A stretch of DNA of 64,000 nucleotides, taken from an uncultured Lachnospiraceae bacterium (GTDB taxonomy: Bacteria; Bacillota; Clostridia; Lachnospirales; Lachnospiraceae). Shown here piece after piece: positions 3,592 to 64,000 of this stretch. The number at the start of each line of letters is the position of its first letter. Within the stretch, counting starts at the first letter, position 1. Location of the stretch: the NCBI GenBank assembly GCA_944383765.1, contig CALWQT010000001.1, positions 310,001 through 374,000 on the forward strand. The letters run 5' to 3'. The notes beneath the pieces are model-generated. The model was not told the DNA's origin. It ran no database searches and saw nothing but the letters and a program-made list of their open reading frames with translations. A program made the position numbers and the translations under genes.

Positions 3592-4765
3592 AAAAAAACA
3601 GGGATTGCGGGCAGCAGCGGAATGCCTTCTTGCGAATCAGCAAAAGATTTTATCTGCCAATGAAAAAGACGTGTTGAAGGCTGAGAAAGGTGGTATGAGC
3701 CCTGGAATGGTAGATCGTCTCCGGCTGACGGTGGAGAGAATTGAGGCCATGGCTGAGGGAATGCTCCAGGTTGCGGAACTGGAGGATCCGATAGGGGAAG
3801 TGGAAGAAATGAAAAAACGTCCCAATGGCCTGCTGATCGGAAAAAAGAGAGTTCCTTTAGGAGTAGTGGGGATCATCTATGAAGCAAGACCCAATGTAAC
3901 AGCGGATGCGTTTGCCCTCTGTTTTAAGACAGGTAATGCGGTGATCTTGAGAGGAGGCAGCGATGCCCTTCATTCCAATATAGCCGTAGTAGAAGCATTG
4001 AAAGAAGGCCTGCATCAACAGGGCCTGACGGAAGATTCGGTTCAGCTGATCACAGATACGGACAGGGAAACTGTGAAAAAACTGATGAAGATGAATGAGT
4101 ATGTGGATGTGCTGATTCCCAGGGGAGGAGCAGGTCTGATCCGAACGGTGGTGGAGAACAGTACGGTTCCTGTCATCGAAACAGGGACCGGAAACTGTCA
4201 TATTTATGTGGATGAAAGCGCTGATTTTCAAATGGCATTGGATATTATCTTTAATGCGAAAACACAGAGGATCGGGGTCTGCAATGCCTGTGAGTCTTTG
4301 CTGGTTCACAGAAAGATTGCCGAAGAGTTCCTGCCTCTTTTAAAAAACAGGCTGGATGAAAAACATGTGGAAATCAGGGCGGATCAGGATGCAATGGGGA
4401 TTGTTCCTTCCTTTATTCCAGCAACCGAACAGGATTGGGGAACGGAATATCTGGACTATATCGTATCTTTGAAACTTGTGGACAGTGTGGAGGAAGCCAT
4501 CACCCACATTAACCGTTATAATACAGGGCATTCAGAGGCTATCATTACAAAAGATTATGGAAATGCCCAGAAATTTTTAGATGAAGTAGATGCGGCAGCC
4601 GTATATGTGAATGCATCTACCAGGTTTACAGACGGGTTTGAATTTGGCTTTGGAGCAGAGATCGGTATCAGCACGCAGAAACTTCATGCCAGAGGTCCTA
4701 TGGGGCTTAAGGAACTGACAACTACAAAATACATTATTTACGGAAATGGTCAGGTGAGAAAGTGA
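3521..4765 (+). CDS. proA: Gamma-glutamyl phosphate reductase (glutamate-5-semialdehyde dehydrogenase)
   Basis: Reduces gamma-glutamyl phosphate to glutamate semialdehyde with NADPH, the second step of proline synthesis after ProB. The protein has 414 residues, usual for the family. Landmarks are [30 protein letters not shown], the PRGGAGLI segment, the catalytic-cysteine region [19 protein letters not shown], and the end [23 protein letters not shown] chose the ATG at 3521 because AAAAGGGGGAA precedes it at good distance; an in-frame upstream ATG lies inside the preceding gene. No terminator is obvious after it; the next gene has its own promoter-like sequence at 4777-4806. Confidence 0.96.
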
Positions 4766-4776
4766 TCATGAAAGGA

Positions 4777-4806
4777 TTGACCATTTGGCTGAGTTTCCAT
4801 TATAAT
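4777..4806 (+). promoter_or_regulatory. Sigma-A-type promoter before deoD
   Basis: TTGACC at 4777-4782 and TATAAT at 4801-4806 are separated by 18 bases. The likely transcript starts near 4813, leaving a leader of about 60 bases that contains a small GC hairpin (GGGCG 4837-4841 with CGCCC 4849-4853) ahead of the AGGAGG site. No purine riboswitch core was found. Confidence 0.7.
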
Positions 4807-4875
4807 CGGATTATACAGAATGATAAATCATGAATCGGGCGGCTTAGACGCCCCGGAAAATAGGAGGAAAATAAT

Positions 4876-5595
4876 ATGGGAACACCACACAATGAAGCTG
4901 CTGTAGGAGAGATTGCGAAGACAGTCCTTATGCCGGGAGATCCTCTCCGCGCAAAATTTATTGCAGAAACCTATCTGGAAGATGTGACCTGTTTCAACCA
5001 TGTAAGAAATATGTTTGGATTTACAGGAACCTACAAGGGGATAAAAGTGTCAGTGATGGGAAGCGGAATGGGAATGCCGTCTATAGGATTGTATTCTTAT
5101 GAACTGTATCATCATTACGGGGTAGAAAACATTATGCGTATCGGAAGCGCCGGTTCTATCTCTGATGAGGTTCAGGTAAAGGATATCATCCTTGCTATGG
5201 GGGCCTGCACGGACTCCAATTACGCATATCAGTACAGAACCAATGGAATCTTTGCTCCTATTGCAGATTATAAACTTTTGAAAAATGCAGAGGAGCAGGC
5301 GCTGAAACTGGGAATTTCTCCGAAAGTAGGAAATATTCTTTCCTCAGATATCTTCTATCATGATGATCCGGAAGTGAATGCGCCTTGGGCAAAGATGGGA
5401 ATCATGGCAGTGGAAATGGAAGCAGCAGCTCTTTATATGAATGCTGCCAGAGCAGGAAAGAGAGCTCTCTGTATGCTGACCGTTTCTGACCATATCCTGA
5501 AAGGAATTTCCCTTTCTGCGGAGGAGAGACAGACAGGATTCCGCCAGATGATGGAAGTTGCTCTGAATACAGCTGTGGCTGTGGACAATCTGTAG
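4876..5595 (+). CDS. deoD: Purine-nucleoside phosphorylase, DeoD type
   Basis: Phosphorolysis of purine (deoxy)nucleosides to free base and (deoxy)ribose 1-phosphate. At 239 residues it matches the hexameric DeoD class. Visible are MPGDPLRAKFIAETYLED near the start, NMFGFTGTYKG, the phosphate-site region IMRIGSAGSI, the nucleoside-binding VEMEAAALYMNA near residue 180, and the catalytic aspartate segment TVSDHILKG. The His-Asn of the N-terminal TPHNEA block, which reaches a neighbouring subunit, is also present. Guanine deaminase follows after 9 bases, so the pair would take guanosine to guanine and on to xanthine. Confidence 0.95.
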   Translation: MGTPHNEAAVGEIAKTVLMPGDPLRAKFIAETYLEDVTCFNHVRNMFGFTGTYKGIKVSVMGSGMGMPSIGLYSYELYHHYGVENIMRIGSAGSISDEVQVKDIILAMGACTDSNYAYQYRTNGIFAPIADYKLLKNAEEQALKLGISPKVGNILSSDIFYHDDPEVNAPWAKMGIMAVEMEAAALYMNAARAGKRALCMLTVSDHILKGISLSAEERQTGFRQMMEVALNTAVAVDNL

Positions 5596-5604
5596 GAGGA
5601 TTCC

Positions 5605-6870
5605 ATGAAAGGAACCATAATTTTAAAAGGAAATATTATAGATACGCCTACCAAAGACCAGTTCCGGTGTGTGGAAAACGGGTATCTGGTAGCTGTAGAT
5701 AATGAGATCAAAGGCGTATTCCAGGAACTTCCGGCAGAATATGCAAAAGAAGAAGTGACGGATTATGGGAATCTCCTGATTATACCGGGAATGTATGATA
5801 TGCATGTCCATGCGCCCCAGTTTGTGTACCGGGGGCTGGGTCTGGATATGCAGCTGATGCAGTGGCTGGAAACCTATGCATTCCCTACAGAGAGCCGTTT
5901 TTCGGATGAAGAATATGCCAGAACGTATTACCGGGCTTTTGTTCAGACCTTAAAGAAAAATGGAACAGCGAGAGCTGTCGTTTTTGGTACTATCCATGTT
6001 CCTGCTGCCGAAATTCTCATGGATATTATGGAAGAGGAAAAAGTAGGCGGTTTTGCAGGGAAGATCAATATGGATACGTTGTGCCCGGACTTTCTGAGAG
6101 AAGACAGCCAGCAGTCAGTGGCAGATACCAGAGAGTGGCTGGAGCGTAATGTGAGCAAACGTACTCTGGTAAAGCCGGCGGTTACTCCAAGGTTTATTCC
6201 AACCTGTACCAGCCAGGTTCTGGAGGGATTGGGAAAACTGGTAAAAGAATATCAGGTACCAGTCCATTCCCATATTTCGGAAGATATTGGAGAGATGGAT
6301 ATTGTAAGAGGACGGTATCCGGAGTATGCCCATGATGGAGCGGTATATGACCATTTTGGATTGCTGACAGATAAGACGGTGATGGCTCATTTTGTCTATC
6401 CGGCAGAAGAAGAACTGGAACTGATCCGTGACCGGGGTGTCACGATTGCCCACTGTCCTCAGTCTAATGGTAATGTGGCTGCGGGGATTCCTCCTATCCG
6501 GAAAATGCTGGATATGGGGATTAAGGTAGGTTTGGGATCTGATATCGCAGGAGGATACAGCCCCTGCCTGTTCCGTGCCATGTCAGAAGCCGTATATCTG
6601 TCCAAGTTAAAATGGCTGGAAAGCGGCAAAGAAGAAGATTTCCTGTCCGTTCCGGAAGCGTTTTATCTGGGAACAAAAGGCGGCGGACAATTTTTTGGTA
6701 AAGTGGGAAGTTTTGAAGAAGGATATGAGCTGGACGCTCTGGTCCTTGACGATACTTCTTTATCAGTCAGCTTGGATCATTTCAGCCTGACAGAACGGCT
6801 GGAACGGCTGATTCACGTGGGGGACGACAGAAATATTACTGCAAGATATGTTGCAGGAGAAAAGGCTTGA
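5605..6870 (+). CDS. guaD: Guanine deaminase (amidohydrolase family)
   Basis: Zinc hydrolase converting guanine to xanthine and ammonia. The metal ligands are visible in order: HVHAPQ (residues about 72-77), HSHISE, the histidine of TIAHCPQSNGNV, and the aspartate of GLGSDIAGG. The block YRGLGLDMQLMQWLETYAFPTESRF after HVHAPQ, and PRFIPTC, are typical of guanine deaminases rather than other amidohydrolases. Length (421 residues) fits. It follows deoD closely with AGGAGG before the ATG, and a strong terminator comes directly after, so deoD-guaD is a two-gene unit. Confidence 0.93.
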   Translation: MKGTIILKGNIIDTPTKDQFRCVENGYLVAVDNEIKGVFQELPAEYAKEEVTDYGNLLIIPGMYDMHVHAPQFVYRGLGLDMQLMQWLETYAFPTESRFSDEEYARTYYRAFVQTLKKNGTARAVVFGTIHVPAAEILMDIMEEEKVGGFAGKINMDTLCPDFLREDSQQSVADTREWLERNVSKRTLVKPAVTPRFIPTCTSQVLEGLGKLVKEYQVPVHSHISEDIGEMDIVRGRYPEYAHDGAVYDHFGLLTDKTVMAHFVYPAEEELELIRDRGVTIAHCPQSNGNVAAGIPPIRKMLDMGIKVGLGSDIAGGYSPCLFRAMSEAVYLSKLKWLESGKEEDFLSVPEAFYLGTKGGGQFFGKVGSFEEGYELDALVLDDTSLSVSLDHFSLTERLERLIHVGDDRNITARYVAGEKA

Positions 6871-53834: not shown

Positions 53835-54818
53835 TCAGCCAATCAGCCCTTTATCCATATATCCGGCAAGTTCTTTGGCAAAATAGGTCAGAAGGATATT
53901 GCAGCCTGCCCGGTAAATGCTGGTAGCTGTTTCACAGACCAGCTTCTCTTCTTCAATATAGCCTAATTTTCCTCCAGCCTTGATCATGGCATATTCTCCG
54001 CTGACACTGTAGGCAGCTACAGGAACATCAATGGCATCCGCAGTTTCCCGGATAATATCCAGATAGGACAGAGCTGGTTTGATCATAATAATATCAGCGC
54101 CCTCTTCCAGATCGGCATATACTTCTTTCATAGCTTCTTTTCGGTTATGGTAATCCATCTGATAGGATTTCCGGTCTCCGAAAGACGGAGCAGAGCCTGC
54201 TGCATCCCGGAATGGTCCGTAAAAGCCGGATGCATATTTCGCTGCATATGACATGATCGGGACGGTACAGTATCCGTTTTCATCTAATATGTGACGGATT
54301 GCAGCAACCCGTCCGTCCATCATATCGGAAGGTGCAACCATATCGGCTCCTGCCTGAACCTGGGACAGGGCAATTTTGGCCAGATATTCCAGGGTTTTGT
54401 CATTGTCCACGTAGTCACCGTTTAAAATCCCGCAGTGTCCATGGGACGTATATTCACACATGCAGACATCGCCAATCATATACAGTTCCGGAACGGTTTC
54501 TTTTGCTTTCCGGAATGCTTTCTGTATGATTCCGTCTTCTGCCCATGCACCGCTTCCGCAGGCATCTTTATGGTCTGGTATTCCAAATAGCATGACACTG
54601 GGGACACCGGCATCTGCTACTTCTTCCAAGGCTTCCGGAAGGCGGTCCAGGCTGTAGCGATACTGGCCCGGCATAGTGGGGATTTCCTCTTTTATATTAG
54701 TTCCTTCCATTACGAACATGGGATAGATCAGGGAGGATTTATCCATTCTGGTCTCTCTTACCATTTTTCTCAGTACGGGGCTGGTACGCAGCCTCCGCGG
54801 TCTTTGAATCATATCCAT
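53835..54818 (-). CDS. hemB: Porphobilinogen synthase (delta-aminolevulinic acid dehydratase)
   Basis: Condenses two 5-aminolevulinate to porphobilinogen. 327 residues: RRLRTSPVLRKMVRET, the zinc-type cysteine cluster DVCMCEYTSHGHCG near residue 115, VAPSDMMDGRVAAIR, the Schiff-base lysine regions SYAAKYASGFYGPFRDA and IMIKPALSYLDII, and VSGEYAMIKA. Last gene of the operon that starts at hemA; the usual hemL does not follow, as the next gene is on the other strand. Confidence 0.96.
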   Translation of the reverse strand: MDMIQRPRRLRTSPVLRKMVRETRMDKSSLIYPMFVMEGTNIKEEIPTMPGQYRYSLDRLPEALEEVADAGVPSVMLFGIPDHKDACGSGAWAEDGIIQKAFRKAKETVPELYMIGDVCMCEYTSHGHCGILNGDYVDNDKTLEYLAKIALSQVQAGADMVAPSDMMDGRVAAIRHILDENGYCTVPIMSYAAKYASGFYGPFRDAAGSAPSFGDRKSYQMDYHNRKEAMKEVYADLEEGADIIMIKPALSYLDIIRETADAIDVPVAAYSVSGEYAMIKAGGKLGYIEEEKLVCETATSIYRAGCNILLTYFAKELAGYMDKGLIG

Positions 54819-54850: not shown

Positions 54851-56371
54851 TTAATTTGCCTGTCCGGCCACATCAGTCAGAATGGCCTCTACCATTCCAG
54901 GAATGCTGAAGGTACCAGCTACAAGATCGGCTTCTCTTCCGTAATCAGCCAGGGCCTTTGCCGTAATATCTCCGATACAGACTACTTTCAGATTGTCTAA
55001 CTGTTTTCGGCATTCAGAAGACAGTCCGTCAAAGAAAGCAGTAACGCCGGAAGCACTGGCAAATGTAAGGTAATCGGAAACAGCCAGGCTGTCTTCCATG
55101 GATGATTCTTTTTGCCTGCTGATTACATCATAAAGAATAATATCGTCATAAGGAATCTGATGACAGTCCAGAATCTGGTTCAAGATCTTGGAACCGCCTG
55201 AAGAACGGGGAATGAGCAGCCTGTCTTTGGGAGTAACCATATGGGACAGACCTTCTGCCAGATCTTCCACCTGATACCGGTCCGGCATGTAATCGGCATG
55301 GAAACCGAACTGGCGCAGTTCCCTTGCAGTTCCTTTTCCTACCACCGCCATCTTTAAATTTCCCAGGCAGCGAAAATCCTTTCCGGACTCCATCAGACCC
55401 TGAAAAAACAGACGGACTGCATTGGCGCTGGTGAAAATGACCCAGGTGTAAGCTTCCAATTTTTCATAAGCCTTCTGAATCGGCTCTTCATTCAGGTGGG
55501 ATATCATTCCCAAACCGCAGATGCATTCCGCATAAGCACCCAGGTCTTTCAGGGAATCCATCAGTTTCTCCGTGAAATTATCGGTTCCGGTCACACTGAT
55601 CCGGATCCCTTTTAAAGGACGTTTTATGGTAGAACCCATCTCCAGAGTGATGGTATCTCCCACTGCAATAATGGCAGGCGTACCGATTCCAGCTTCTTTT
55701 ACTTTCTTCTCAATATCAGAAAGAGTTCCCCGGACACATACAGCTTCCGGAAGCGTTCCATTCTGAATGACCGCAGCAGGTGTATCTGCCGGTTTTCCGG
55801 CTTTGATCAGACCACTGACGATCAAAGGAAGATTCCCAAGCCCCATCAGAAAGATCAGGGTACCAGACAGACCTGCAAAATGAGAAAAATCCGGTGGAAG
55901 ACTGCCTTCTTCGGACAGTGTGTGTCCTGTCATAACATGAAAACTGCGGCTGACAGCCCTGTGGGTAACCGGTATGCCGGCACATTCCAAAGCAGCTACA
56001 GCAGAAGTTACTCCGGGAAGAACCTCATAAGGGATCCCTGCGCTTTGGAGAGCCAGGACTTCTTCTCCTCCCCTTCCAAAGACAAAAGGGTCTCCCCCTT
56101 TTAAACGAACTACGGTCTGTCCTTCCAGCCCAAGCTTTACAAGCAGCGTGTTGATTTCATCCTGAGACATGGAATGCCTGCCTGCCCGTTTCCCTACATA
56201 AATTTTTTCTGCCTGGGGAGCAAGGTCAAGAAGGCAGTCAGATGACAGGGAATCGTATACGACTGTGTCGCAGGATTTCAGACGACGGATACCGCCTGCA
56301 GTAATGAGTTCCGGGTCTCCCGGTCCTGCACCTACCAGGTAAACAACGCCTTTTCTTTCAGTTCCTGCCAT
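54851..56371 (-). CDS. cobA-hemD: Fusion of uroporphyrinogen-III C-methyltransferase and uroporphyrinogen-III synthase
   Basis: 506 residues carrying two enzymes. The first (about 1-245) is SUMT: VYLVGAGPGDPELITAGG, VRLKGGDPFVFGRGGEEV, LPGVTSAVAA, PVTHR; it methylates uroporphyrinogen III to precorrin-2. The second (about 255-506) is HemD-like (VIFTSANAVRLFF, VGKGTARELRQFGF, LIPRSS, ITAKALADYG), closing hydroxymethylbilane. I start at 56371 (MAGTERKG) after AAAGGAGGGC. Such fusions are common in Clostridia. Overlaps hemC by 14 bases. Confidence 0.94.
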   Translation of the reverse strand: MAGTERKGVVYLVGAGPGDPELITAGGIRRLKSCDTVVYDSLSSDCLLDLAPQAEKIYVGKRAGRHSMSQDEINTLLVKLGLEGQTVVRLKGGDPFVFGRGGEEVLALQSAGIPYEVLPGVTSAVAALECAGIPVTHRAVSRSFHVMTGHTLSEEGSLPPDFSHFAGLSGTLIFLMGLGNLPLIVSGLIKAGKPADTPAAVIQNGTLPEAVCVRGTLSDIEKKVKEAGIGTPAIIAVGDTITLEMGSTIKRPLKGIRISVTGTDNFTEKLMDSLKDLGAYAECICGLGMISHLNEEPIQKAYEKLEAYTWVIFTSANAVRLFFQGLMESGKDFRCLGNLKMAVVGKGTARELRQFGFHADYMPDRYQVEDLAEGLSHMVTPKDRLLIPRSSGGSKILNQILDCHQIPYDDIILYDVISRQKESSMEDSLAVSDYLTFASASGVTAFFDGLSSECRKQLDNLKVVCIGDITAKALADYGREADLVAGTFSIPGMVEAILTDVAGQAN

Positions 56372-57329
56372 AACTCTGCCCTCCTTTCTCTTCTTCCGTT
56401 TTCCTGTTGCCGCTAAGATGTTTTGCTGCCTGCATGGCCAGTGATTCCCATTGATCCATAGGAGCTGATAAATGAACTTTCCGGATCTGTCCATTTCTGC
56501 CGCAGATTCCGAAAAGTTCCAGTTCTTTTTCCTGTAATCTGGTATAAACACCAATGGGTTCATGACAGCCCGCATCTAAAAGCTTGAGAACCATACGTTC
56601 TGTTTGAAGGGAAAGCCGGGCAGCTTTATTTTCTGCTCCTGCACATAACGTTTTTGTACGGCTATCCTGCGCTCGCCCTTCAACTGCCAGGATTCCCTGT
56701 CCGCCTGCCGGAATAAATTCTTCACAGGACAGATATTGGAGAGAGAATGGTTCCAGTTCCTGAGAATCCTTTTCCAGAAATCCCAGACGTTTCAGACCGG
56801 CTGCGGCCAGTAAAATAGCATCATATCCGCCTTCCTGCAAACGTTTCAGACGGGTGTTCACATTTCCACGGAGATTTTCACATCGTATACAGGCATGTGG
56901 CCAAAGTTTTTTCCCAATTTCTTCTATCTGGACTTTCCTTCTGGGGCTGGAGGTTCCTATAATGATTTCTGTTTTTTGCGAAAGATCTTCCTTTTTCCTG
57001 GTGACCAGTACGTCTCTGGGGTCTTCCCTTTCCGGTACCGCAATGATTTCCAGGCCTTCCTTCAAGTCCATAGGCAGATCTTTTGCACTGTGGACTGCCA
57101 GGTCAATCTGCCCGTCTGCCAGTCCCTGCTCGAATTCCGACACAAAGACACCCTTTCCGCCAAATTCCAACAGGGGCTTATTCAAAATTTTATCTCCCAC
57201 AGTCTGCTTCAACACAAGCTGGGTCTGTATCTGTGGCTGCCCTTTTTCCAGTAAGCTTGCCACCAGCCTGGTCTGAGCTACAGCCAAGTCACTTTTTCTT
57301 GTACCAATACGAATGATTTCTACTGACAT
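56358..57329 (-). CDS. hemC: Hydroxymethylbilane synthase (porphobilinogen deaminase)
   Basis: Joins four porphobilinogens. 323 residues: IIRIGTRKSDLAVAQTRLV, GGKGVFVSEFEQGL, LAVHSAKDLP, IGTSSPRRK, ENLRGNVNTRLKRL, PAGGQGILAVEGR and the cofactor cysteine in DAGCHEPIGVY. The charged C-terminal end (EEEKGGQSYGRN) overlaps the next gene's ribosome site. Its start overlaps sirC by 10 bases. Confidence 0.96.
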   Translation of the reverse strand: MSVEIIRIGTRKSDLAVAQTRLVASLLEKGQPQIQTQLVLKQTVGDKILNKPLLEFGGKGVFVSEFEQGLADGQIDLAVHSAKDLPMDLKEGLEIIAVPEREDPRDVLVTRKKEDLSQKTEIIIGTSSPRRKVQIEEIGKKLWPHACIRCENLRGNVNTRLKRLQEGGYDAILLAAAGLKRLGFLEKDSQELEPFSLQYLSCEEFIPAGGQGILAVEGRAQDSRTKTLCAGAENKAARLSLQTERMVLKLLDAGCHEPIGVYTRLQEKELELFGICGRNGQIRKVHLSAPMDQWESLAMQAAKHLSGNRKTEEEKGGQSYGRN

Positions 57330-57961
57330 TCTTTTTGTTTCCTCCGAATGAGATCCTCTGCTTCTTCTCTGCTTAAATGACAGCCGCCGGCAATTCCCTG
57401 TTTTACCATTTCCCGGAAAATAGCTGTCCGGATATGGATATCGTCAACCCGGGATTTTACCAGATCCCGGTAACTTCCAAGCTGTATAGCCAAAGCCCCA
57501 AAACCTTCTGGAATGCACTCCCGAAAAGATGATTTCAGATACTGGGCGATAGTAGGGCTGCTGCCGCCGGTGGATATACCCACGGTAATATCCCCGTCTT
57601 TAATGAGAGCAGGAAAAATAAAGCTGCATTCTTCCTGTACATCTACTACATTGACTGGAATCTTTTTTTCTTTACACAGGGCAGAAATCCTGCGGTTTAA
57701 GGAAGAATCCTCTGTAGCTGCTATGACAAAATCGGCATGCTCAATATCCTGATCTTCAAATTTTCTTACATGTATCTGCAAACGTCCCTGATTATCATTA
57801 CGGACAAGATTTTTCAATGGTTCAATCACCTCAGGGGCTACAATCTGAATTTCAGGGCCAAAAGGGACCAGTACTTCGGCTTTCCGATATGCAACCATGC
57901 CGCCTCCCACAAGAAGGCAATGCTGTCCTTCTATATCAACGAAAAATGGAAAATAAGCCAA
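57320..57961 (-). CDS. Precorrin-2 dehydrogenase / sirohydrochlorin ferrochelatase (Met8/SirC-like)
   Basis: 213 residues. AYFPFFVDIEGQHCLLVGGGMVAYRKAEVLV is the NAD-binding opening of the CysG N-terminal/Met8 family, continuing with FVIAATEDSSLNRRISALCKEKKIPVNVVD and the GISTGGSSPTIAQYLKSSF block. It oxidises precorrin-2 to sirohydrochlorin; whether it also inserts iron cannot be decided from sequence. A gene of this kind, with CobA upstream, completes siroheme synthesis. Confidence 0.9.
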   Translation of the reverse strand: MAYFPFFVDIEGQHCLLVGGGMVAYRKAEVLVPFGPEIQIVAPEVIEPLKNLVRNDNQGRLQIHVRKFEDQDIEHADFVIAATEDSSLNRRISALCKEKKIPVNVVDVQEECSFIFPALIKDGDITVGISTGGSSPTIAQYLKSSFRECIPEGFGALAIQLGSYRDLVKSRVDDIHIRTAIFREMVKQGIAGGCHLSREEAEDLIRRKQKECQ

Positions 57962-57964
57962 ATT

Positions 57965-59128
57965 TTATTCCTCCTTGAGCCAAACTTTCAGTCCATCCAA
58001 TGTTCGGAGAATGACCTTTAAATCTTCACTGCTCACATGATCCCGTATCTGGTACAGTATGGTATCTGGACGTTTTTCTTCCAGAAGCTTTCGGATTTCA
58101 CCCATTTCACGGATATATGGGTGAAACATCATTTCTTTTACTGCTCCGTCCAGGTCTTCTTCCATAATTGCTTTTGCCCGGTCCAGCTCTCTGGTTTTGA
58201 TTTCTGTATTGTTTCTGGATAAAGTTTCAAAATAATCAATATCGTAAAGGGATAATCCTTCTATATTGCGAATTTCCGGATCCATATCAATAGGCACTGC
58301 TACATCCATAAAAAGCCGTTTTTTATTCGTTTTTAATACCGGACGAAGAGCCTCTCCGGTGACCGTATAATGAGGACCGGAAGTGGCGCTGACCACGATA
58401 TCCATATCGTCCATATACAGATATCGATCCTGATAATCCACTAATCGGATCTGGTCGCTTTTTACGTCCATGATAAATTCAGGCTTATGACTGCGGACTG
58501 TTCCGATTACCTGAATTCCCGGTTTACTCAAAATATTTTTTGTAATGGTACTTCCCATTTTTCCACTCATACCAATAACCATCACTTTTTTTTCTGTGTT
58601 ATCTTCTTTGGTAAAATGGAATACTTCATTGGCTACCAGTGTGGCAATGGATAACGGTGTCCGGGATAACTTAGTATCTGTTTTGATCCGTTTTGCAGCT
58701 GCTAATGCCCGCTGAAACAGTACATTCAGTTCATAATCAGCAGAATCTCTTTCAAGGGAAAACTGATAGGCATTTCTCACCTGACCCAGAATTTCATCTT
58801 CGCCTAACACCATAGAATCAAAACCACAGCAGACTTTGAACAGATGAGTAATTGCCTGTTCTCCGCTGTAAAGGTTCAGATATTTCAGGATTTCCTTCAA
58901 TACCAGATTTTTAAAGGCTGCCATTTCTTTCTGCAGTTCCCCTAATGCATGTTTGTTACCGGATATATAGATTTCACTGCGATTACAGGTGCACAGTACT
59001 ACACAGCCGGAAATTTCAGGATTCTGTTTCAGTCGTTTAATCAAAGCATCTTTCTCCTGTTCTGTCAGGGCAAATTTTTCCCGGATATTAACAGGAGCTT
59101 TTTTATGGCTGATACTTACGCAGTACAT
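57965..59128 (-). CDS. hemA: Glutamyl-tRNA reductase
   Basis: First committed enzyme of C5-pathway tetrapyrrole synthesis. 387 residues: ISHKKAPVNIREKFAL, the catalytic Cys in VVLCTCNRSEIYISG, GFDSMVLGEDEILGQVRNAY, the NADPH site VMVIGMSGKMGSTITKNIL, and VSATSGPHYTV. The last helix domain is shorter than in E. coli. First gene of its operon; only a weak ribosome site (AAGGAAATG) precedes the start and no clear promoter was found in the 60 bases before it. Confidence 0.95.
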   Translation of the reverse strand: MYCVSISHKKAPVNIREKFALTEQEKDALIKRLKQNPEISGCVVLCTCNRSEIYISGNKHALGELQKEMAAFKNLVLKEILKYLNLYSGEQAITHLFKVCCGFDSMVLGEDEILGQVRNAYQFSLERDSADYELNVLFQRALAAAKRIKTDTKLSRTPLSIATLVANEVFHFTKEDNTEKKVMVIGMSGKMGSTITKNILSKPGIQVIGTVRSHKPEFIMDVKSDQIRLVDYQDRYLYMDDMDIVVSATSGPHYTVTGEALRPVLKTNKKRLFMDVAVPIDMDPEIRNIEGLSLYDIDYFETLSRNNTEIKTRELDRAKAIMEEDLDGAVKEMMFHPYIREMGEIRKLLEEKRPDTILYQIRDHVSSEDLKVILRTLDGLKVWLKEE

Positions 59129-59186
59129 CAGTTCATTTCCTTCCGTATGATATGTTTAAGATTCCTTATCTGTATCTAAAACCTGC

Positions 59187-59210
59187 AAAAAGAAGGGAAA
59201 AATCCCTTCT
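59187..59210 (-). terminator. Terminator after asrC
   Basis: AGAAGGGA (59191-59198) pairs with TCCCTTCT (59203-59210) around AAAA. On the minus strand the stem is followed by TTTTTG. It separates asrABC from the hem operon, which therefore needs its own promoter or read-through. Confidence 0.88.
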
Positions 59211-59240
59211 TTCTGCAAATGTTTGAATATCTGAATCAAT

Positions 59241-60302
59241 TTATTTCTTTGCGAAAGAGTATCCTCTCTCTTCGGTAGGACCAGCAAACTTATGCTGGGA
59301 CAGAGGCATAACGTGCATATTTCCTCTCTGCTCATTCTCAGCCCAGTAAATATCGTCAGCCATCTTTGCTTCCGGATTGAATTCTACACCCTCAAAGATA
59401 TGTTTTACAAACTCTTTGTAGCCTACACGGTCGATCAGATGTCCGCCATGGAGATACTCAGGTTTATAGTCCAGAGCCCATGCAGAGAATTTCTGCCAGT
59501 TAGCAAACATTCCAAGTACAACATCTTCCGTTACCCAGTTCAGGAACAGTTTACCGGAACGTGGATTCTGCTTACCGGTACGGCCACCCAGAGTAACACG
59601 GTACAGCTGTTTTCCTCTGGACCATGCGCCGGTAGGACAGATCAGAGAACACTCACCGCAACCTACGCAGCAGCAGGTGTCTTTATCAATTTTTCCGTTG
59701 GCATTCAGGCTCAGTACGCCGGTAGCGTGATGTTCACAGGCTTCCACACAGGAACCGCATCCGATACAACGGTCAATATCATATACCTGTTTATGAACAC
59801 CCATAATACCGAAATCGTTAAAGTTAGCTTTTGCACAGTCGTTCGGACATCCGGCAACCGCTACTTTGATGTGATAATGGGACGGGAATACCAGTCTTTC
59901 GATCTTACGAGCCAGTTTGTAGGTATTGATATTACCTTTGATACAATGTGCATTACCGATACAGGAAATGATGTTTCTTGCACCGATAGTAGGATAACCT
60001 GCATCGTTAGATTCCATATCTACATCACACATTTCGATGTCTACGTCATGGATATAACCTTTGATGAATTTGTTTACTTCATCGATGTATTCATATTTGA
60101 TCCCAGGAATATTGAGAGTCTGTCTGGTTCCCATATGGAAGGTTCCGTTACCCCATCTCTCACAGATTTCCTGAACCATGCTTAAGTGTTTTGCATCGAT
60201 CAAAGCGCCAGGTACACGCAGCTGAAGCATGAACTCTCCGGCAACCTTGGACTGTCTGTAACAGTTGATACGAACTTTCTTGATATCAATATCGTGATTC
60301 AT
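59241..60302 (-). CDS. asrC: Anaerobic sulfite reductase subunit C (siroheme)
   Basis: Catalytic subunit reducing sulfite to sulfide. 353 residues. The siroheme/4Fe-4S ligands are in CIGNAHC (CxxxxxC) and GCPNDCAKANFNDFG (CxxxC). Two ferredoxin motifs follow, CIGCGSCVEACEHHATG and CVGCGECSLICPTGAW, as in Salmonella and Clostridium AsrC. The opening KKVRINCYRQSKVAGEFMLQLRVPG and MGTRQTLNIPG form the substrate half. A terminator closes the operon after it. Confidence 0.95.
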   Translation of the reverse strand: MNHDIDIKKVRINCYRQSKVAGEFMLQLRVPGALIDAKHLSMVQEICERWGNGTFHMGTRQTLNIPGIKYEYIDEVNKFIKGYIHDVDIEMCDVDMESNDAGYPTIGARNIISCIGNAHCIKGNINTYKLARKIERLVFPSHYHIKVAVAGCPNDCAKANFNDFGIMGVHKQVYDIDRCIGCGSCVEACEHHATGVLSLNANGKIDKDTCCCVGCGECSLICPTGAWSRGKQLYRVTLGGRTGKQNPRSGKLFLNWVTEDVVLGMFANWQKFSAWALDYKPEYLHGGHLIDRVGYKEFVKHIFEGVEFNPEAKMADDIYWAENEQRGNMHVMPLSQHKFAGPTEERGYSFAKK

Positions 60303-60320
60303 ATTTCCTTGCCCCTTTCC

Positions 60321-61112
60321 TTAGTCAACCAGATATTTGGCCTGTGTATAATTGAATACCGGACCGTCCAGGCATACGTAAACCTCGTCGATACGGCAAT
60401 GACCGCATTTGCCAACAGCGCAGGACATCTTACGCTCGAAGGAAACCCAGATCTTCTCTTCCTTTACACCACACTTGACAGCTTCAAGTCCGGTGAATTT
60501 CATCATTGGCGGCGGTCCTACGATTACTACTTCGTAGTCCTCTCCAAAATCCTTAAATGGAACCTTGGATACGAATTCTGTTACGAAACCAGTATTCCAG
60601 CCCTCTTTCTGATCTCTGTCAAGGGTATACATGGTTGTGAATTTTTCTTTCCATCTTTCCAGATCGTTCTTGAAGATGATGCCTTCTTCATTCTTGAAAC
60701 CACTGATCAAAGTCACGCTCTTTACATAGTCAGGATTATCATAGAACATATTCAGCATACTCTTTACAGGAGCCAGTCCGGTACCACCGGTAATGACTAC
60801 CATATGTTTGCCCTGGAATTTTTCTACCGGCCAGCCGTGACCATAAGCACCGCGCAGGAACAGAATATCTCCCGGCTTTTTGTCAAAAATCACATCAGTA
60901 ACTTTACCTACAGAACGGATCGTAAAATCCATCCAGCCGTCACCGTAACCGCTGACGGAAATAGGCGCCTCACCAACCTTCGGAATGGAAAGCTGTAAGA
61001 ACTGTCCATGGGAAGGTTTAATATCTGTTTCTACTTTAAATGTCCATTCATGTAAGCTTTCTTTCTTCACTTCAAGAATCTTGCAAGCGACAGGTTTAAC
61101 AATATTATTCAT
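60321..61112 (-). CDS. asrB: Anaerobic sulfite reductase subunit B (FAD/NAD(P)H)
   Basis: Electron-input subunit. 263 residues of ferredoxin-NADP reductase fold: HGQFLQLSIPKVGEAPISVS (FAD side), LRGAYGHGWPVE, the NAD(P) motif MVVITGGTGLAPVKSMLNM, YEVVIVGPPPMMKF, and the 2Fe-2S cysteines in SCAVGKCGHCRIDEVYVCLDGP. The same fold occurs in hydrogenase and dihydroorotate dehydrogenase partners, but position between asrA and asrC settles it. Confidence 0.95.
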   Translation of the reverse strand: MNNIVKPVACKILEVKKESLHEWTFKVETDIKPSHGQFLQLSIPKVGEAPISVSGYGDGWMDFTIRSVGKVTDVIFDKKPGDILFLRGAYGHGWPVEKFQGKHMVVITGGTGLAPVKSMLNMFYDNPDYVKSVTLISGFKNEEGIIFKNDLERWKEKFTTMYTLDRDQKEGWNTGFVTEFVSKVPFKDFGEDYEVVIVGPPPMMKFTGLEAVKCGVKEEKIWVSFERKMSCAVGKCGHCRIDEVYVCLDGPVFNYTQAKYLVD

Positions 61113-61133
61113 CCTTTATCCACCTCTCCCTGA

Positions 61134-62165
61134 TTATTTCTCTTCTGCTACAATCTCATCAATCGCTTTTGCCATCTTATCAACAGTAGCTGCAATGGAG
61201 ATATACTCAGGACATCTGTCAATACATCTGCCGCAGCCAACGCACATATGATAATCTTTAAAACGTGCTTTGTAATCGTGGAACTTGTGGAGCACTTTAT
61301 AACGCATTCTCTCACCAGCTGTATTACGGAAACTCATGCCGCCAGCCATATCGGTGAATCCTTTAATCTGACAGGATGCAGAGGTTCTCTTTCTCTCACC
61401 AACACTGCCGTTTTCATTGTATACGATGTCAGTGGTGGTAAAGCAGGTACAGGTACTGCAGGCAATGGTACAAGCGCCACAGGAAATACAACGTTTGTTG
61501 TACTCATTCCACATTGGATGAGATTTCAGTTTCAGAAGTACATCTTTGTTAGGGATTTCCGGAATCTCAACATGAAGTTCATTTTCTTTTACATAATCCG
61601 GTTTGAAGTCAGCAGAAGCCTGGCCTTCAAAATAAGGAGCAAAGTCAGCATCTTTCACATCCAGTGTCAGTTCTCCCTCACCAAAACGAACTGCCATGGA
61701 ATAATCTTCGCTCTTATTGGTTCCCATGCTTACACAGAAGCAGGTATCCCAGCCGGTGGTACATTCCATCATGACGATTTTTACTTTTTCGTTCATGCGC
61801 TTGTAGTACATATCAGTGAAGTCACCGTTAGAAAGGTAGATTTTCTCCTGATGATGCTGTGCGTGAATATCACACGGTCTCATGAAAATCAGTAATTTTT
61901 TCTTGGTTGCTTTGCTTTCGATGAACTCGTCCTCTGTAAAGTAGAACAGGGATTCCGTAATTGGGGTGAGCACTTCTTTTGCAGGGAAATCGGATTTCTC
62001 TTTGTATTCGATTTCTTCTACGGTATTCACCTTGTCGTATTTGATCATGTCAGTATCGGAATATCTTCCTCTTCCTACGAATCTTTTCGGTGCCCAGATT
62101 TCGTATTCATCCTGGAGCTTTGCAAAGATTTTGTTCGCTTCTTCAAAGCTTACTTTGTAACCCAT
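61134..62165 (-). CDS. asrA: Anaerobic sulfite reductase subunit A (ferredoxin-like)
   Basis: Electron-transfer subunit, 343 residues. An N-terminal domain (YKVSFEEANKIFAKLQDEYE, LLIFMRPCDIHAQHHQEK) resembles the beta subunits that feed Ni-Fe hydrogenases. Two 4Fe-4S motifs follow near the C-terminus: CISCGACTIACSTCTC and CVGCGRCIDRCPEYIS. AAAGGAGGATTC precedes the ATG. It lies 72 bases after the arylsulfotransferase gene, with no terminator visible between them. Confidence 0.95.
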   Translation of the reverse strand: MGYKVSFEEANKIFAKLQDEYEIWAPKRFVGRGRYSDTDMIKYDKVNTVEEIEYKEKSDFPAKEVLTPITESLFYFTEDEFIESKATKKKLLIFMRPCDIHAQHHQEKIYLSNGDFTDMYYKRMNEKVKIVMMECTTGWDTCFCVSMGTNKSEDYSMAVRFGEGELTLDVKDADFAPYFEGQASADFKPDYVKENELHVEIPEIPNKDVLLKLKSHPMWNEYNKRCISCGACTIACSTCTCFTTTDIVYNENGSVGERKRTSASCQIKGFTDMAGGMSFRNTAGERMRYKVLHKFHDYKARFKDYHMCVGCGRCIDRCPEYISIAATVDKMAKAIDEIVAEEK

Positions 62166-62237
62166 TGAGTGAATCCTCCTTTTTCTTCTAACTCCCTAAG
62201 TCTTATGTCATTGATGAACTTACAGAGAATATGCTGA

Positions 62238-64000
62238 CTAGAAAGTAACTTCTACTCCAGTTTCATATTTCTTATCATCAATGGTAACGGTAATCTTGTA
62301 GGTTCCCTGGATACCCTCACCGCTTACCGGGAACTCTACCGCCCTTGGATCATGATCCAGGAATGTGCCGACACACATTGCCAGGAACGGGCGTTTCGTG
62401 GTTGGTACAAAATAGTGCCTGTTCGGAGCCCCATTGATTCCTTCCAGATTCAGCATGACTAAAGTGCCTTTCTCAAAACTTGCCTTAAACACAAGGCGGT
62501 CAGCTTCTTTGGCAATCTTTGCATGATAATCATCAGGAATCATACCTGCTTCCTCAGCAGGCGCTTCTGTTAAGAATTCCTCTGTCACACCAAGGCTTCC
62601 CAGGCGTTCTCCGCAGCCAAAAGTCACTTCGTCAGCTTCATCATACAGATGAAGTTTTTCTGCACGGTAATAATTGGCAGGGAGATGCATTTCATACATA
62701 ACAACATCATCTTTTACTTCCACAGTGATGGAACTAAGCTGTACAGAACCGTTTTCGATTCCTTCAGACATAGAAGCACCTGGCACATTCAGATATTCAC
62801 CATCTTTTTTGCCGATACCACCGGAATGAACCAGATAGTGACCTTCTCCATAATATTCACAGTTACAGATATAAGTGGAGAAGAATTCCGCTCCTCTTTC
62901 TTTTCCATACTGCCATACCTGTTCGATGGTCATATCATCTGTATTGATACGATAGATAACACCACGGGAGAAGTTATCTTTTGCTTCCAGATACTGTTCC
63001 TTTATTTTGGAACGCCAATGACCATTATCAAAGCACATCACATCTCCGTTAGGCAGAATCATGCAGGCATGCTGTTCATACTGCCAGTCAAAATCTCCAT
63101 CTCCCACCGGCTTAAAGAAATATTTCTGCATATCTTCCGGCCAGCCGGTTGGATCGCCAATGATCCAGTTCAGTTTACCGGTTTCAAAATCACGGTTTAT
63201 GATGATATCCTGATGACGTCCGGAGAATGTCAGGGAATTTGTCTTTTTATCATACCAGACAGCATTATTATGGAACCAGTCATGGCTATCCTGACTTCCG
63301 GAACCGCCTACAGGGTATACGGGAAGTACATCCTGATGGTCCCACTCTTTCAAGATTTTACCTGTTTTTCTATCCACAAGCACACAGGCATCTTCTACAG
63401 TACCACGGGGAAGGTATTGCGTCAAGATTAAAATATCTCCATTTTCCATTTCCCACTCATCATGGTGGTACCCTCCCGGAACTCTATATTCCCGATATAC
63501 CTTTCCGATCATGCCCATCTCATAAATACCACTGGTGTGATAAGGCGGAGCAACCAGACGGTCCGTACCCATGAGCAAACGGCCATTTCTGGCACGTTTA
63601 ATATCAAATGCCAGGTTCAGGGTGTTATACCATCTGGCATCACCTGCATAATCATAAGCAGCTGTGTATGCTGGAGAAGTTGGGCTTACCATCATAACAA
63701 AATCCTGAAAATATTCGGAAGTTGTTTCCATACTGGTAGGCTTTTTCAATTTCTCACCGGCAGGCTCTGTTTTGATTTTAAGAGTAGCGGTTTCACCTGT
63801 GCTTAATTCGATGATTACCGTATTCTCATAATTTTCATACAGTCCGTAAATCGGAAGAACCATGTGTTCTGAATCACTTACCGGACGGTACATCATATCT
63901 CCTGCTTTTTCTTTGCCTTTCACGGTTACTTTCGCAAATGCTGGCTTTTCATTTTCGAACATTACCAGTGCCGTAAGAGGAGCAATCAAATAAGGATTCA
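62238..64000 (-). CDS. Aryl-sulfate sulfotransferase (N-terminus beyond window)
   Basis: PAPS-independent enzyme moving sulfate from one phenol to another. 587 residues are visible. The frame is open to the window edge (NPYLIAPLTALVMF), so the true start and any signal peptide lie outside; the in-frame TTG at 63989 is not taken as the start. A short N-terminal beta domain precedes a six-bladed propeller with SHDWFHNNAVWYD, GRHQDIIINRDFETGKLNWIIGDP, the QYEQHACMILPNGDVMCFDNGH block and GEGHYLVHSGG. Histidines in these blocks match the positions of the sulfate-transfer site in the E. coli enzyme family. Natural donors in the gut include phenol and tyrosine metabolites. asrABC follows on the same strand. 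Confidence 0.9.
   Translation of the reverse strand, partial: NPYLIAPLTALVMFENEKPAFAKVTVKGKEKAGDMMYRPVSDSEHMVLPIYGLYENYENTVIIELSTGETATLKIKTEPAGEKLKKPTSMETTSEYFQDFVMMVSPTSPAYTAAYDYAGDARWYNTLNLAFDIKRARNGRLLMGTDRLVAPPYHTSGIYEMGMIGKVYREYRVPGGYHHDEWEMENGDILILTQYLPRGTVEDACVLVDRKTGKILKEWDHQDVLPVYPVGGSGSQDSHDWFHNNAVWYDKKTNSLTFSGRHQDIIINRDFETGKLNWIIGDPTGWPEDMQKYFFKPVGDGDFDWQYEQHACMILPNGDVMCFDNGHWRSKIKEQYLEAKDNFSRGVIYRINTDDMTIEQVWQYGKERGAEFFSTYICNCEYYGEGHYLVHSGGIGKKDGEYLNVPGASMSEGIENGSVQLSSITVEVKDDVVMYEMHLPANYYRAEKLHLYDEADEVTFGCGERLGSLGVTEEFLTEAPAEEAGMIPDDYHAKIAKEADRLVFKASFEKGTLVMLNLEGINGAPNRHYFVPTTKRPFLAMCVGTFLDHDPRAVEFPVSGEGIQGTYKITVTIDDKKYETGVEVTF

Follow-up and report, generated by a model that had tools for sequence, protein, structure and literature searches.

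The closest described arrangement of an aryl-sulfate sulfotransferase (ASST) with a thioredoxin-fold protein is the assT-dsbL-dsbI operon of Escherichia coli CFT073, where a periplasmic ASST has its disulfide made by an oxidising partner (PMC13426309). The natural acceptors and the physiological role of bacterial aryl sulfotransferases are described as poorly understood in the same 2026 review, which mentions neither sulfite nor thioredoxin in the first part of its section 5, in its section 6 or under a term search of its main text. Enzymes of Cluster II (Desulfitobacterium, Hungatella), which belong to the same family as the proteins reported here and share most active-site residues with them, have been studied as biocatalysts. 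On the side of sulfite consumption, the feeds discussed for gut bacterial asrABC are sulfite, sulfate or taurine-derived, and the word "sulfotransferase" is absent from the main text of that paper (PMC9016944). The isethionate and taurine sulfite-lyase pathways also take organic sulfur through sulfite to sulfide in gut anaerobes, but are described as cleaving sulfonate C-S bonds by radical chemistry, whereas the locus described below would open an S-O ester. Among the matches viewed in a search of open-access journal papers, we found no report of a pathway combining an ASST, thioredoxin and sulfite reductase.

The window, a 64,000-nucleotide stretch of DNA from an uncultured Lachnospiraceae bacterium, ends in the gene order ASST1-asrA-asrB-asrC, all on the minus strand (table 1). 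The original prediction, an ASST and asrA-asrB-asrC on one strand with 72 bases between them, is borne out by the reading frames and profile matches; 586 of the 626 ASST1 codons lie inside the window, the remaining 118 bases beyond position 64000. As in gut asrABC loci, all three subunits, here adjacent, score above their NCBIfam equivalog cut-offs, and from this family membership and the adjoining siroheme genes we infer that AsrABC reduces sulfite to sulfide. The gap between ASST1 and asrA had been described as free of a visible terminator, with a terminator past asrC, and folding agrees: no significant fold was found in the gap (z 0.21), compared with -26.8 kcal/mol over 81 nt (z -5.65) for the stretch 3' of asrC that holds the hairpin. 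A simple scan listed no terminator and no promoter on the minus strand of the gap; its sites did not exceed those in shuffles, and it missed the asrC hairpin too. Rfam gave zero matches at the gathering threshold in the extended stretch (L014). The true start of cobA-hemD probably lies further inside its frame.

Table 1. Features of the ASST-asrABC stretch and the adjoining siroheme genes (window positions unless stated otherwise)
Feature	Position	Strand	Evidence
ASST1, aryl-sulfate sulfotransferase	62238..64000	-	PF05935 338.5 bits, PF17425 64.3 bits
ASST1, full 626-aa frame	4239-6119 of extended stretch L014	-	
ASST1-to-asrA gap, 72 bases, without hairpin	62166..62237	-	fold z 0.21
asrA	61134..62165	-	TIGR02910 445 bits, cut-off 323
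asrB	60321..61112	-	TIGR02911 339 bits, cut-off 289
asrC, siroheme sulfite reductase subunit, lower-scoring subtype	59241..60302	-	TIGR02912 376 bits, cut-off 324; NIR_SIR domains
Terminator-like hairpin 3' of asrC	59181..59220	-	18-bp stem, U-rich 3' side
hemA, glutamyl-tRNA reductase	57965..59128	-	PF05201 163 bits
Presumed precorrin-2 dehydrogenase-like gene (siroheme synthesis), our naming of the PF13241 match	57320..57961	-	PF13241 112.6 bits
hemC, porphobilinogen deaminase	56358..57329	-	PF01379 237.7 bits
cobA-hemD, fused uroporphyrinogen-III methylase and synthase	54851..56575	-	PF00590 and PF02602
hemB	53835..54818	-	PF00490 495 bits

Beyond the end of the window the cluster continues on the same strand with four further genes (a second ASST, a thioredoxin, a thioredoxin reductase and an anion transporter), giving the order transporter-trxB-trxA-ASST2-ASST1-asrA-asrB-asrC, with a divergent Crp/Fnr regulator gene upstream and the siroheme genes at the asrC end. 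The thioredoxin passes the Pfam cut-off (81.1 vs 23.5) and misses the NCBIfam equivalog (86.6 vs 96.8); the reductase, whose best NCBIfam model is the thioredoxin reductase equivalog, likewise stays below that cut-off (326.6 vs 343.45), with CAICDG present and HRRxxxR, the NADPH motif of thioredoxin reductase, absent. Judged from their sequences, TrxA and TrxB of this cluster appear to be a deviant subfamily of the thioredoxin system. An ASST fold, a catalytic histidine and a thioredoxin-fold gene in the cluster are common to this locus and that of E. coli CFT073 (PMC13426309). Here, however, inspection by eye shows no apparent export signal in the ASST N-termini, and in place of DsbL/DsbI stands a TrxA/TrxB pair that is probably reducing and is followed by a sulfite reductase. 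No DsbA/DsbB-like oxidant pair is found among the partner genes of the locus, which match PF00085 (thioredoxin) and Pyr_redox_2. The Crp/Fnr protein was considered as an aromatic sensor and set aside, its PDB sequence matches being NtcA, CRP and others, with no aromatic sensor recognised by molecule name.

Given the observed linkage we favour, with slightly better than even confidence, a reading of the locus as a dedicated organosulfate-to-sulfide module; the sulfite-forming chemistry is what we infer. The transporter would import an aryl (or other) sulfate ester, and the cytoplasmic ASST would accept the sulfuryl group of the ester on its catalytic histidine (H349 in ASST2), setting the phenol or alcohol free. 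From there the group would go, as an alternative or in addition to another phenol, to a thiol in the dedicated TrxA, either directly or via an ASST cysteine; the second TrxA cysteine would expel sulfite, the special TrxB would regenerate the thioredoxin, and AsrABC would convert the freed sulfite to sulfide. PAPS/APS reductase (CysH) works along such lines: the sulfuryl group goes to a thiol, thioredoxin frees sulfite, and sulfite reductase makes sulfide. The proposed step would be analogous, with a ready-made sulfate ester in place of ATP-activated sulfate; the logic of sulfuryl to thiol to sulfite to sulfide would be shared, whereas the locus has a beta-propeller with an expected sulfohistidine, no CysH domain and no ATP-activated donor. 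A precedent for the chemistry is the liberation of sulfite from S-sulfocysteine by the E. coli glutaredoxin Grx1 and NrdH (PMC3528435). The original prediction, which is partly supported, had allowed for a missing sulfatase or sulfite-forming step or for shared regulation. A sulfite-forming step out of view is retained, but the neighbouring trxB-trxA genes and ASST2 suggest thioredoxin, and not a sulfatase, as its agent, freeing sulfite from the sulfated enzyme.

To describe the extent of the linkage, we collected 48 related loci, the yield of one query that favours close relatives. Beside the ASST, trxA and trxB are both present in 43 and at least one of them in 44; all of asrA, asrB and asrC are present in 15 and a transporter in 38, and the gap between ASST1 and asrA measures 43-222 bases in 12 related loci. 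The linked TrxA carries TCGPC in 43/44 cases and the linked TrxB CA[IV]CDG in 44/45, with HRRxxxR in none of the 44 linked TrxB with a readable stretch. Among 299 family genomes, nine TrxB matches reach at least 62% identity, all within 1 kb of an ASST match (next best 46%), and asrC lies within 3.5 kb of the ASST in seven of the nine family genomes with this ASST clade. It should be noted that, by equal coordinates, this family draw shares genomes with the 48 loci (G015=G317, G033=G308, G046=G303, G059=G299, G217=G326) and that G228 and G322 have an identical ASST; the two samples are not independent. The linkage spans several families and also Desulfobulbaceae (taxon as given in the record titles), with varying gene order: asrABC is placed before the transporter in L121, ASST-trxB-trxA follows a PTS permease in L081-L085, L091 and L093, and ASST1-asrABC is separate from the trx cluster in L103.

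As a control, the best distant ASST of each of 20 genomes was taken in score order, and by BLAST the trx and asr genes of the cluster were found at none of these 20 loci, four of which (L123, L125, L127, L142) sit on contigs that limit the stretch to less than 15 kb. A thioredoxin regular expression is blind to the TCGPC type and missed its four positive controls, so for this type the control relies on BLAST; its sole control match, in L126, is by eye not a thioredoxin. In L141 there were zero matches to the reference proteins. Among 20 further loci from across the phylum, a second type of thioredoxin (CHVC) occurs near the ASST in five, four of them also with TrxB, and 13 have no thioredoxin beside the ASST (among the 20, the L203 stretch begins at the edge of its contig and the L219 contig is 3 kb long). 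A quick tree, with rows called linked by locus and ten first-set loci left out as near copies or fragments, has 10 changes between linked and unlinked, subject to long-branch warnings.

Neighbouring genes are often unrelated in function, and chance neighbourhood had been named as the plain alternative to a functional ASST-asr pairing, with a search for ASST beside asrA across Lachnospiraceae as the check. The pairing proves conserved in these loci and clade genomes, and because of this synteny we reject chance, which we regard as scarcely credible given the several families and Desulfobulbaceae, the differing gene orders and the empty control; nor does the quick tree suggest one recent transfer of all loci. 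The occurrence of asrABC and trx genes in one cluster at 15/48 loci would also suit a trx pair that serves AsrABC or some other redox partner, with the ASST as a passenger. This is improbable in our judgment: among the 43 loci that hold trxA together with trxB, 28 show no asrABC (some contigs being short), and five loci (L105, L106, L107, L109, L113) have asr beside siroheme genes without trx, in genomes that mostly keep trx with the ASST elsewhere. AsrA and AsrB, moreover, have electron transfer domains of their own.

Both ASSTs match PF05935 far above the cut-off of 24.2 (ASST2, 342.7 bits) and carry the N-terminal Ig-like PF17425. A model of the ASST2 homologue in L047 (93% identical; pLDDT 88.5) superimposes on E. 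coli ASST (4p04_B) with Z 35.3 and rmsd 2.8 over 431 residues. The E. coli active-site residues His436, His356, Asn358 and Arg374 correspond to H349, H282, N284 and R300 of ASST2, all invariant in 75/75 near relatives; a conserved histidine pair, H217/H218, lies near the region of E. coli His252, and Thr501 aligns with I418 (position counted on the alignment), an isoleucine in 77/77. C361, beside the catalytic histidine, was present in 69/69 linked sequences and 6/8 unlinked near relatives of the first set; as an obligate thiol it was rejected when valine was later found in the linked L201 and L202. C351 and C419 vary among ASSTs. On these alignments there is no strict tie of any active-site-blade ASST cysteine to trx linkage, and only "a thiol" is retained.

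An enzyme of this kind may also be an ordinary phenol sulfotransferase of detoxification or conjugate handling, the trx pair keeping its cysteines reduced and AsrABC being merely co-regulated, with sulfated aromatics as a signal of the gut niche. An ASST of Hungatella effluvii, a member of Cluster II, transfers sulfuryl groups to phenol and catechol at high rate, with kcat of 47 and 311 per second (PMC11576661), and ordinary phenol sulfotransfer is therefore possible; the genome of this species carries the cluster reported here (L052), and the assayed gene may be one of that cluster. C361 (73/75) and C579 (75/75) are conserved in the near clade, and the thioredoxin-fold DsbL serves the disulfide of E. 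coli ASST (PMC13426309). HhAST and NmAST were left out of a study that names negligible activity, low biomass or low specific activity as grounds without assigning one to each enzyme, and they are evidence for neither side (PMC11468790). We hold this explanation to be possible but rather unlikely. A sequence-distinct, private TrxA/TrxB in 44/48 loci exceeds the needs of upkeep because the window's genome has two other full thioredoxins (WCGPC) and a further TrxB (CATCDG with HRR); C361 is not universal among linked ASSTs; and the links to sulfite reductase and siroheme genes are left unexplained.

Alternatively, the ASST might hydrolyse its donor in the cell like a sulfatase, the sulfate then being activated and reduced to sulfite for Asr, and free sulfate is reported from an Aspergillus aryl sulfatase that also acts as a transferase; the Eubacterium A-44 enzyme, however, is described as transferring only, with no hydrolysis of its donor (PMC13426309). 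PF01507 (CysH/CysD) has no match in the window's genome, whereas 14/14 control genomes matched; among 10 genome entries searched, five had matches and the window's genome and four others had none, two of the negative entries (G015 and G317) appearing to be one genome. We rate such hydrolysis as very improbable.

Returning to thioredoxin-driven release, the conserved set of ASST, thioredoxin and sulfite reductase suggests a new route from sulfate esters to sulfite and hydrogen sulfide, and the private trx pair and sulfite reductase in the cluster offer a concrete, testable answer on acceptor and role. Against this reading weigh the ordinary activity of the H. effluvii enzyme, the isoleucine at the Thr501 position, the lack of an ASST cysteine strictly tied to the linkage, the 13 of 20 phylum-wide loci with no thioredoxin beside the ASST, the four PTS-type genomes with neither AsrC nor DsrA over the cut-off and the five genome entries that do match PF01507. 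The chances seem to us about even that in the cell the ASSTs of this clade supply the first part of an organosulfate reductase, in which a sulfohistidine enzyme and a private thioredoxin system would make sulfite from sulfate esters with no need of ATP. Gut Lachnospiraceae, Erysipelotrichaceae and some relatives of sulfate reducers could then use sulfate esters from the host or the diet to accept electrons, giving off sulfide. If true, this would identify the natural acceptor that is missing for these ASSTs; gut hydrogen sulfide could come directly from sulfate conjugates of host and diet (steroid, phenol, indoxyl and drug sulfates), the producing bacteria would need no sulfate-activation pathway, and desulfation by them would need no sulfatase.

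AsrC is encoded in 37/47 genomes of the related loci, and DsrA is over the cut-off in four of the other 10. Where no asr is adjacent, AsrC or DsrA occurs elsewhere in 26/32 genomes, and AsrC in 17/17 of those with the order trxB-trxA-ASST (leaving out L048, whose contig ends in ASST1); neither is over the cut-off in 4/7 PTS-type linked genomes. A regulator resembling that of the PTS-type loci was seen at the control locus L134. AsrC of the locus subtype is found in 7/9 genomes with the ASST clade and 5/290 others, kinship ignored; Fisher tests, which also ignore relatedness and are descriptive only, give 7e-10 for this subtype and 4e-6 for any AsrC.

The arrangement set out in the original prediction, an aryl-sulfate sulfotransferase (ASST) gene followed by the sulfite reductase genes asrA-asrB-asrC, was confirmed, with no hairpin of note in the 72-base gap between this gene (ASST1) and asrA (fold z 0.21) and a terminator-like hairpin after asrC. 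AsrC requires siroheme, the synthesis of which lies within the capacity of the hemA-to-hemB gene set past asrC. The source genome (2.58 Mb, 99.55% complete, 29 contigs) contains the window as bases 310001-374000 of contig C1, and the stretch L014 (C1:368000-387000) covers the region past the window end, where the cluster continues; the eight cluster genes on the same strand are separated by gaps of 18-87 bases, and the whole cluster is probably one transcript. ASST-family proteins are encoded in five places of this genome in total; at two of these other than the cluster, L015 (a 5.4-kb contig) and L016, an ASST of the same type lies by Crp-like regulators with no thioredoxin genes in view. The gap between the second ASST gene (ASST2) and ASST1, outside the window, holds a near-perfect hairpin of at least 14 bp with no U-tract (L014:6120-6196; z -6.08), which may set the ratio of both ASSTs; in relatives, 9 of 12 gaps measured fold at -19 kcal/mol or lower and 3 do not (no shuffles). 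A 238-aa protein, also outside the window (L014:11941-12657, plus strand), has at best weak phosphoribosyltransferase matches and turns up close to the ASST cluster at 15 of the 48 related loci described below.

Features of the ASST cluster within the window and past its end
Feature	Location	Strand	Remark
ASST1	62238-64000, cut by window end	minus	family match over curated cut-off
asrA, asrB, asrC	after ASST1	minus	family matches all over curated cut-offs
Strong terminator-like hairpin	59181-59220, past asrC	minus	folding
hemA, precorrin-2 dehydrogenase-like gene, hemC, fused cobA-hemD, hemB	beyond hairpin, in that order	minus	
ASST2, 623 aa	L014, upstream of ASST1	same as ASST1	
Thioredoxin (trxA), 103 aa	L014, upstream of ASST1	same as ASST1	
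Thioredoxin reductase (trxB), 308 aa	L014, upstream of ASST1	same as ASST1	
Anion transporter, citrate-transporter family	L014, upstream of ASST1	same as ASST1	PF03600
Crp/Fnr-type regulator	L014, upstream of ASST1	divergent	

A scan of the collected genomes with ASST2 as query found 48 related loci in 47 genomes. Both trxA and trxB are present in 43 of these loci and at least one of the two in 44 (L070, L072, L080, and L090 have neither), and the transporter is found in 38. The pairing of ASST with the asr genes recurs: asrABC is complete in 15 loci, in each of which asrA follows an ASST by 37-222 bases. The order transporter-trxB-trxA-ASST-ASST-asrABC has a single-ASST version (L065, L067, L092); L121 shows asrABC-transporter-trxB-trxA-ASST-ASST, and in L103 ASST1-asrABC is separate from the trx cluster. 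The order is transporter-ASST-trxB-trxA in L086 and L087 (a Desulfobulbaceae genome and another bacterium) and ASST-trxB-trxA in the Gracilibacteraceae loci L088 and L089, the latter stopping in trxB; Niameybacter L090 has a siroheme-type gene after ASST. In the PTS-type loci (L081-L085, L091, L093), ordered PTS permease-regulator-ASST-trxB-trxA, the PTS IIC/IIB pair and the sugar-binding domain of the regulator suggest a sulfated sugar-like substrate.

To what extent the thioredoxin pair is particular to ASST was seen in an even sample of 299 Lachnospiraceae genomes. ASST-family matches occur in 62 of these genomes, and in 9 of the 62 the match belongs to the high-scoring clade (>320 bits). 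Searching with the linked TrxB gave nine matches of at least 62% identity in eight genomes, all less than 1 kb from an ASST match; the ninth ASST-clade genome, G228, has no TrxB match at this identity. The next-best match in the sample stood at 46%, and the second TrxB of the window's genome at 41%. Judged by sequence motifs, the linked proteins are recognizably special: TCGPC occurs in 43 of 44 thioredoxins and CA[IV]CDG in 44 of 45 reductases (the remaining one is a fragment), and HRRxxxR is absent from all 44 reductases readable over that stretch. The two other full thioredoxins of the window's genome carry WCGPC, and its other reductase CATCDG and HRRDELR. We take HRRxxxR to be a mark of NADPH use, and the linked TrxB may have another electron donor. 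Twenty distant ASST loci, taken as a control together with some 9 kb of flanking sequence either way (less on shorter contigs), contained no relatives of trxA, trxB, the transporter, asr, or Crp by BLAST and no CHVC-type thioredoxin by pattern scan.

When aligned with the E. coli ASST of solved structure, ASST2 has H349 in place of the catalytic His436, a position confirmed by the deposited H436N variant; H282, N284, and R300 correspond to other named active-site residues (numbering: PMC13426309, available part) and are each kept in 75 of 75 close relatives, and the Thr501 position is Ile in ASST2. A predicted structure of the L047 homologue aligns with that of E. coli ASST over 431 residues at Z 35.3. 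The E. coli enzyme is periplasmic, whereas no export signal is apparent by eye in the N-terminal sequences of the window-locus ASSTs. At the level of sequence, the ASST-thioredoxin linkage, its specificity, and a mostly conserved active site are established.

ASST catalysis is described as ping-pong through a sulfohistidine, and an older proposal of a tyrosine is also told (PMC13426309, available part). Attack by a thiol, the presumed acceptor, on the sulfuryl group of the sulfohistidine would give Cys-S-SO3; in E. coli, thiol systems of the glutaredoxin type liberate sulfite from S-sulfocysteine (PMC3528435, available part). The private thioredoxin and reductase would then release sulfite as the ASST product and the sulfite reductase would consume it, and the PF03600 transporter presumably carries sulfate esters. 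This route fits closely, since the private pair lies beside ASST and the sulfite reductase behind it, and we favor it slightly. It is weakened by the phenol-sulfating activity of a Hungatella effluvii ASST (PMC11576661, available part), by the lack of an active-site-blade cysteine strictly bound to the linkage, by the existence of unlinked ASST relatives, and by four genomes of PTS type that lack a known sulfite reductase. Ordinary sulfotransfer by ASST, the thioredoxin pair serving redox upkeep, appears rather improbable as the alternative. All cluster components are of known families; no description of ASST combined with thioredoxin and sulfite reductase was found in the literature searched, and a 2026 review calls the natural acceptors and roles of bacterial aryl sulfotransferases poorly understood (PMC13426309, available part). 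We give even chances to the bolder reading, ATP-free organosulfate reduction.

AsrC, which would take up the sulfite, was found in 37 of the 47 genomes. These are the 15 whose locus includes asr, all 17 in which the order is trxB-trxA-ASST and asr is not adjacent (leaving out L048, whose contig ends in ASST1), and 5 others. Four of the ten genomes without AsrC have DsrA over the cut-off (Desulfobulbaceae, one other bacterium, two Gracilibacteraceae); the remaining six are those of L048 and L070, the latter without thioredoxin genes in the locus, and four of PTS type, which like that of L070 have weaker siroheme-enzyme matches (75-97 bits). Open frames of 880-918 aa in L099, L100, and L101, from genomes with the ASST type of the window locus but no AsrC, look like fusions of an NAD(P)/FAD oxidoreductase portion with one resembling a siroheme sulfite reductase (portions named by eye). 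Among the 299 genomes, the AsrC subtype of the window locus (349-390 bits) is present in 7 of the 9 ASST-clade genomes, within 3.5 kb of ASST in these, versus 5 of 290 others. Apart from two partial matches, AsrC matches to TIGR02912 in this sample fall into two score classes (~457-574 and ~350-390 bits), of which the lower alone was seen beside ASST. The window's genome has no match to PF01507 (the CysH and CysD family), so a CysH-type reductase is unlikely to feed AsrABC there; matches were found in 14 of 14 control genomes and in 5 of 10 searched genome handles, G015 and G317 among the other five being apparently one genome.

Across the phylum, the ASST type of the window locus was found at E 1e-80 or better in 14 of 398 genomes, including the window's. 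Neighborhoods of 20 ASST loci, all outside that genome, showed a TCGPC thioredoxin and TrxB beside ASST in two (L201, L202), a CHVC thioredoxin and TrxB (37-39% identity) in four (L208, L215, L216, L217), a CHVC thioredoxin and transporter without TrxB in L210, and neither thioredoxin type in 13, including L203 (beginning at a contig end) and L219 (a 3-kb contig). A quick tree of 95 ASSTs required 10 changes between linked and unlinked and split the CHVC type between two distinct branches; the linkage was therefore probably gained more than once or often lost. ASST1 and ASST2 belong to different branches, each thioredoxin-linked. A second, shorter ASST-family protein adjoins the ASST and thioredoxin genes in L215, L216, and L088 (PF05935 and PF14269 matches in L216 and L088, resemblance in L215), and in L204 a TauE/SafE-type gene, of a family annotated as sulfite exporter, directly precedes ASST.
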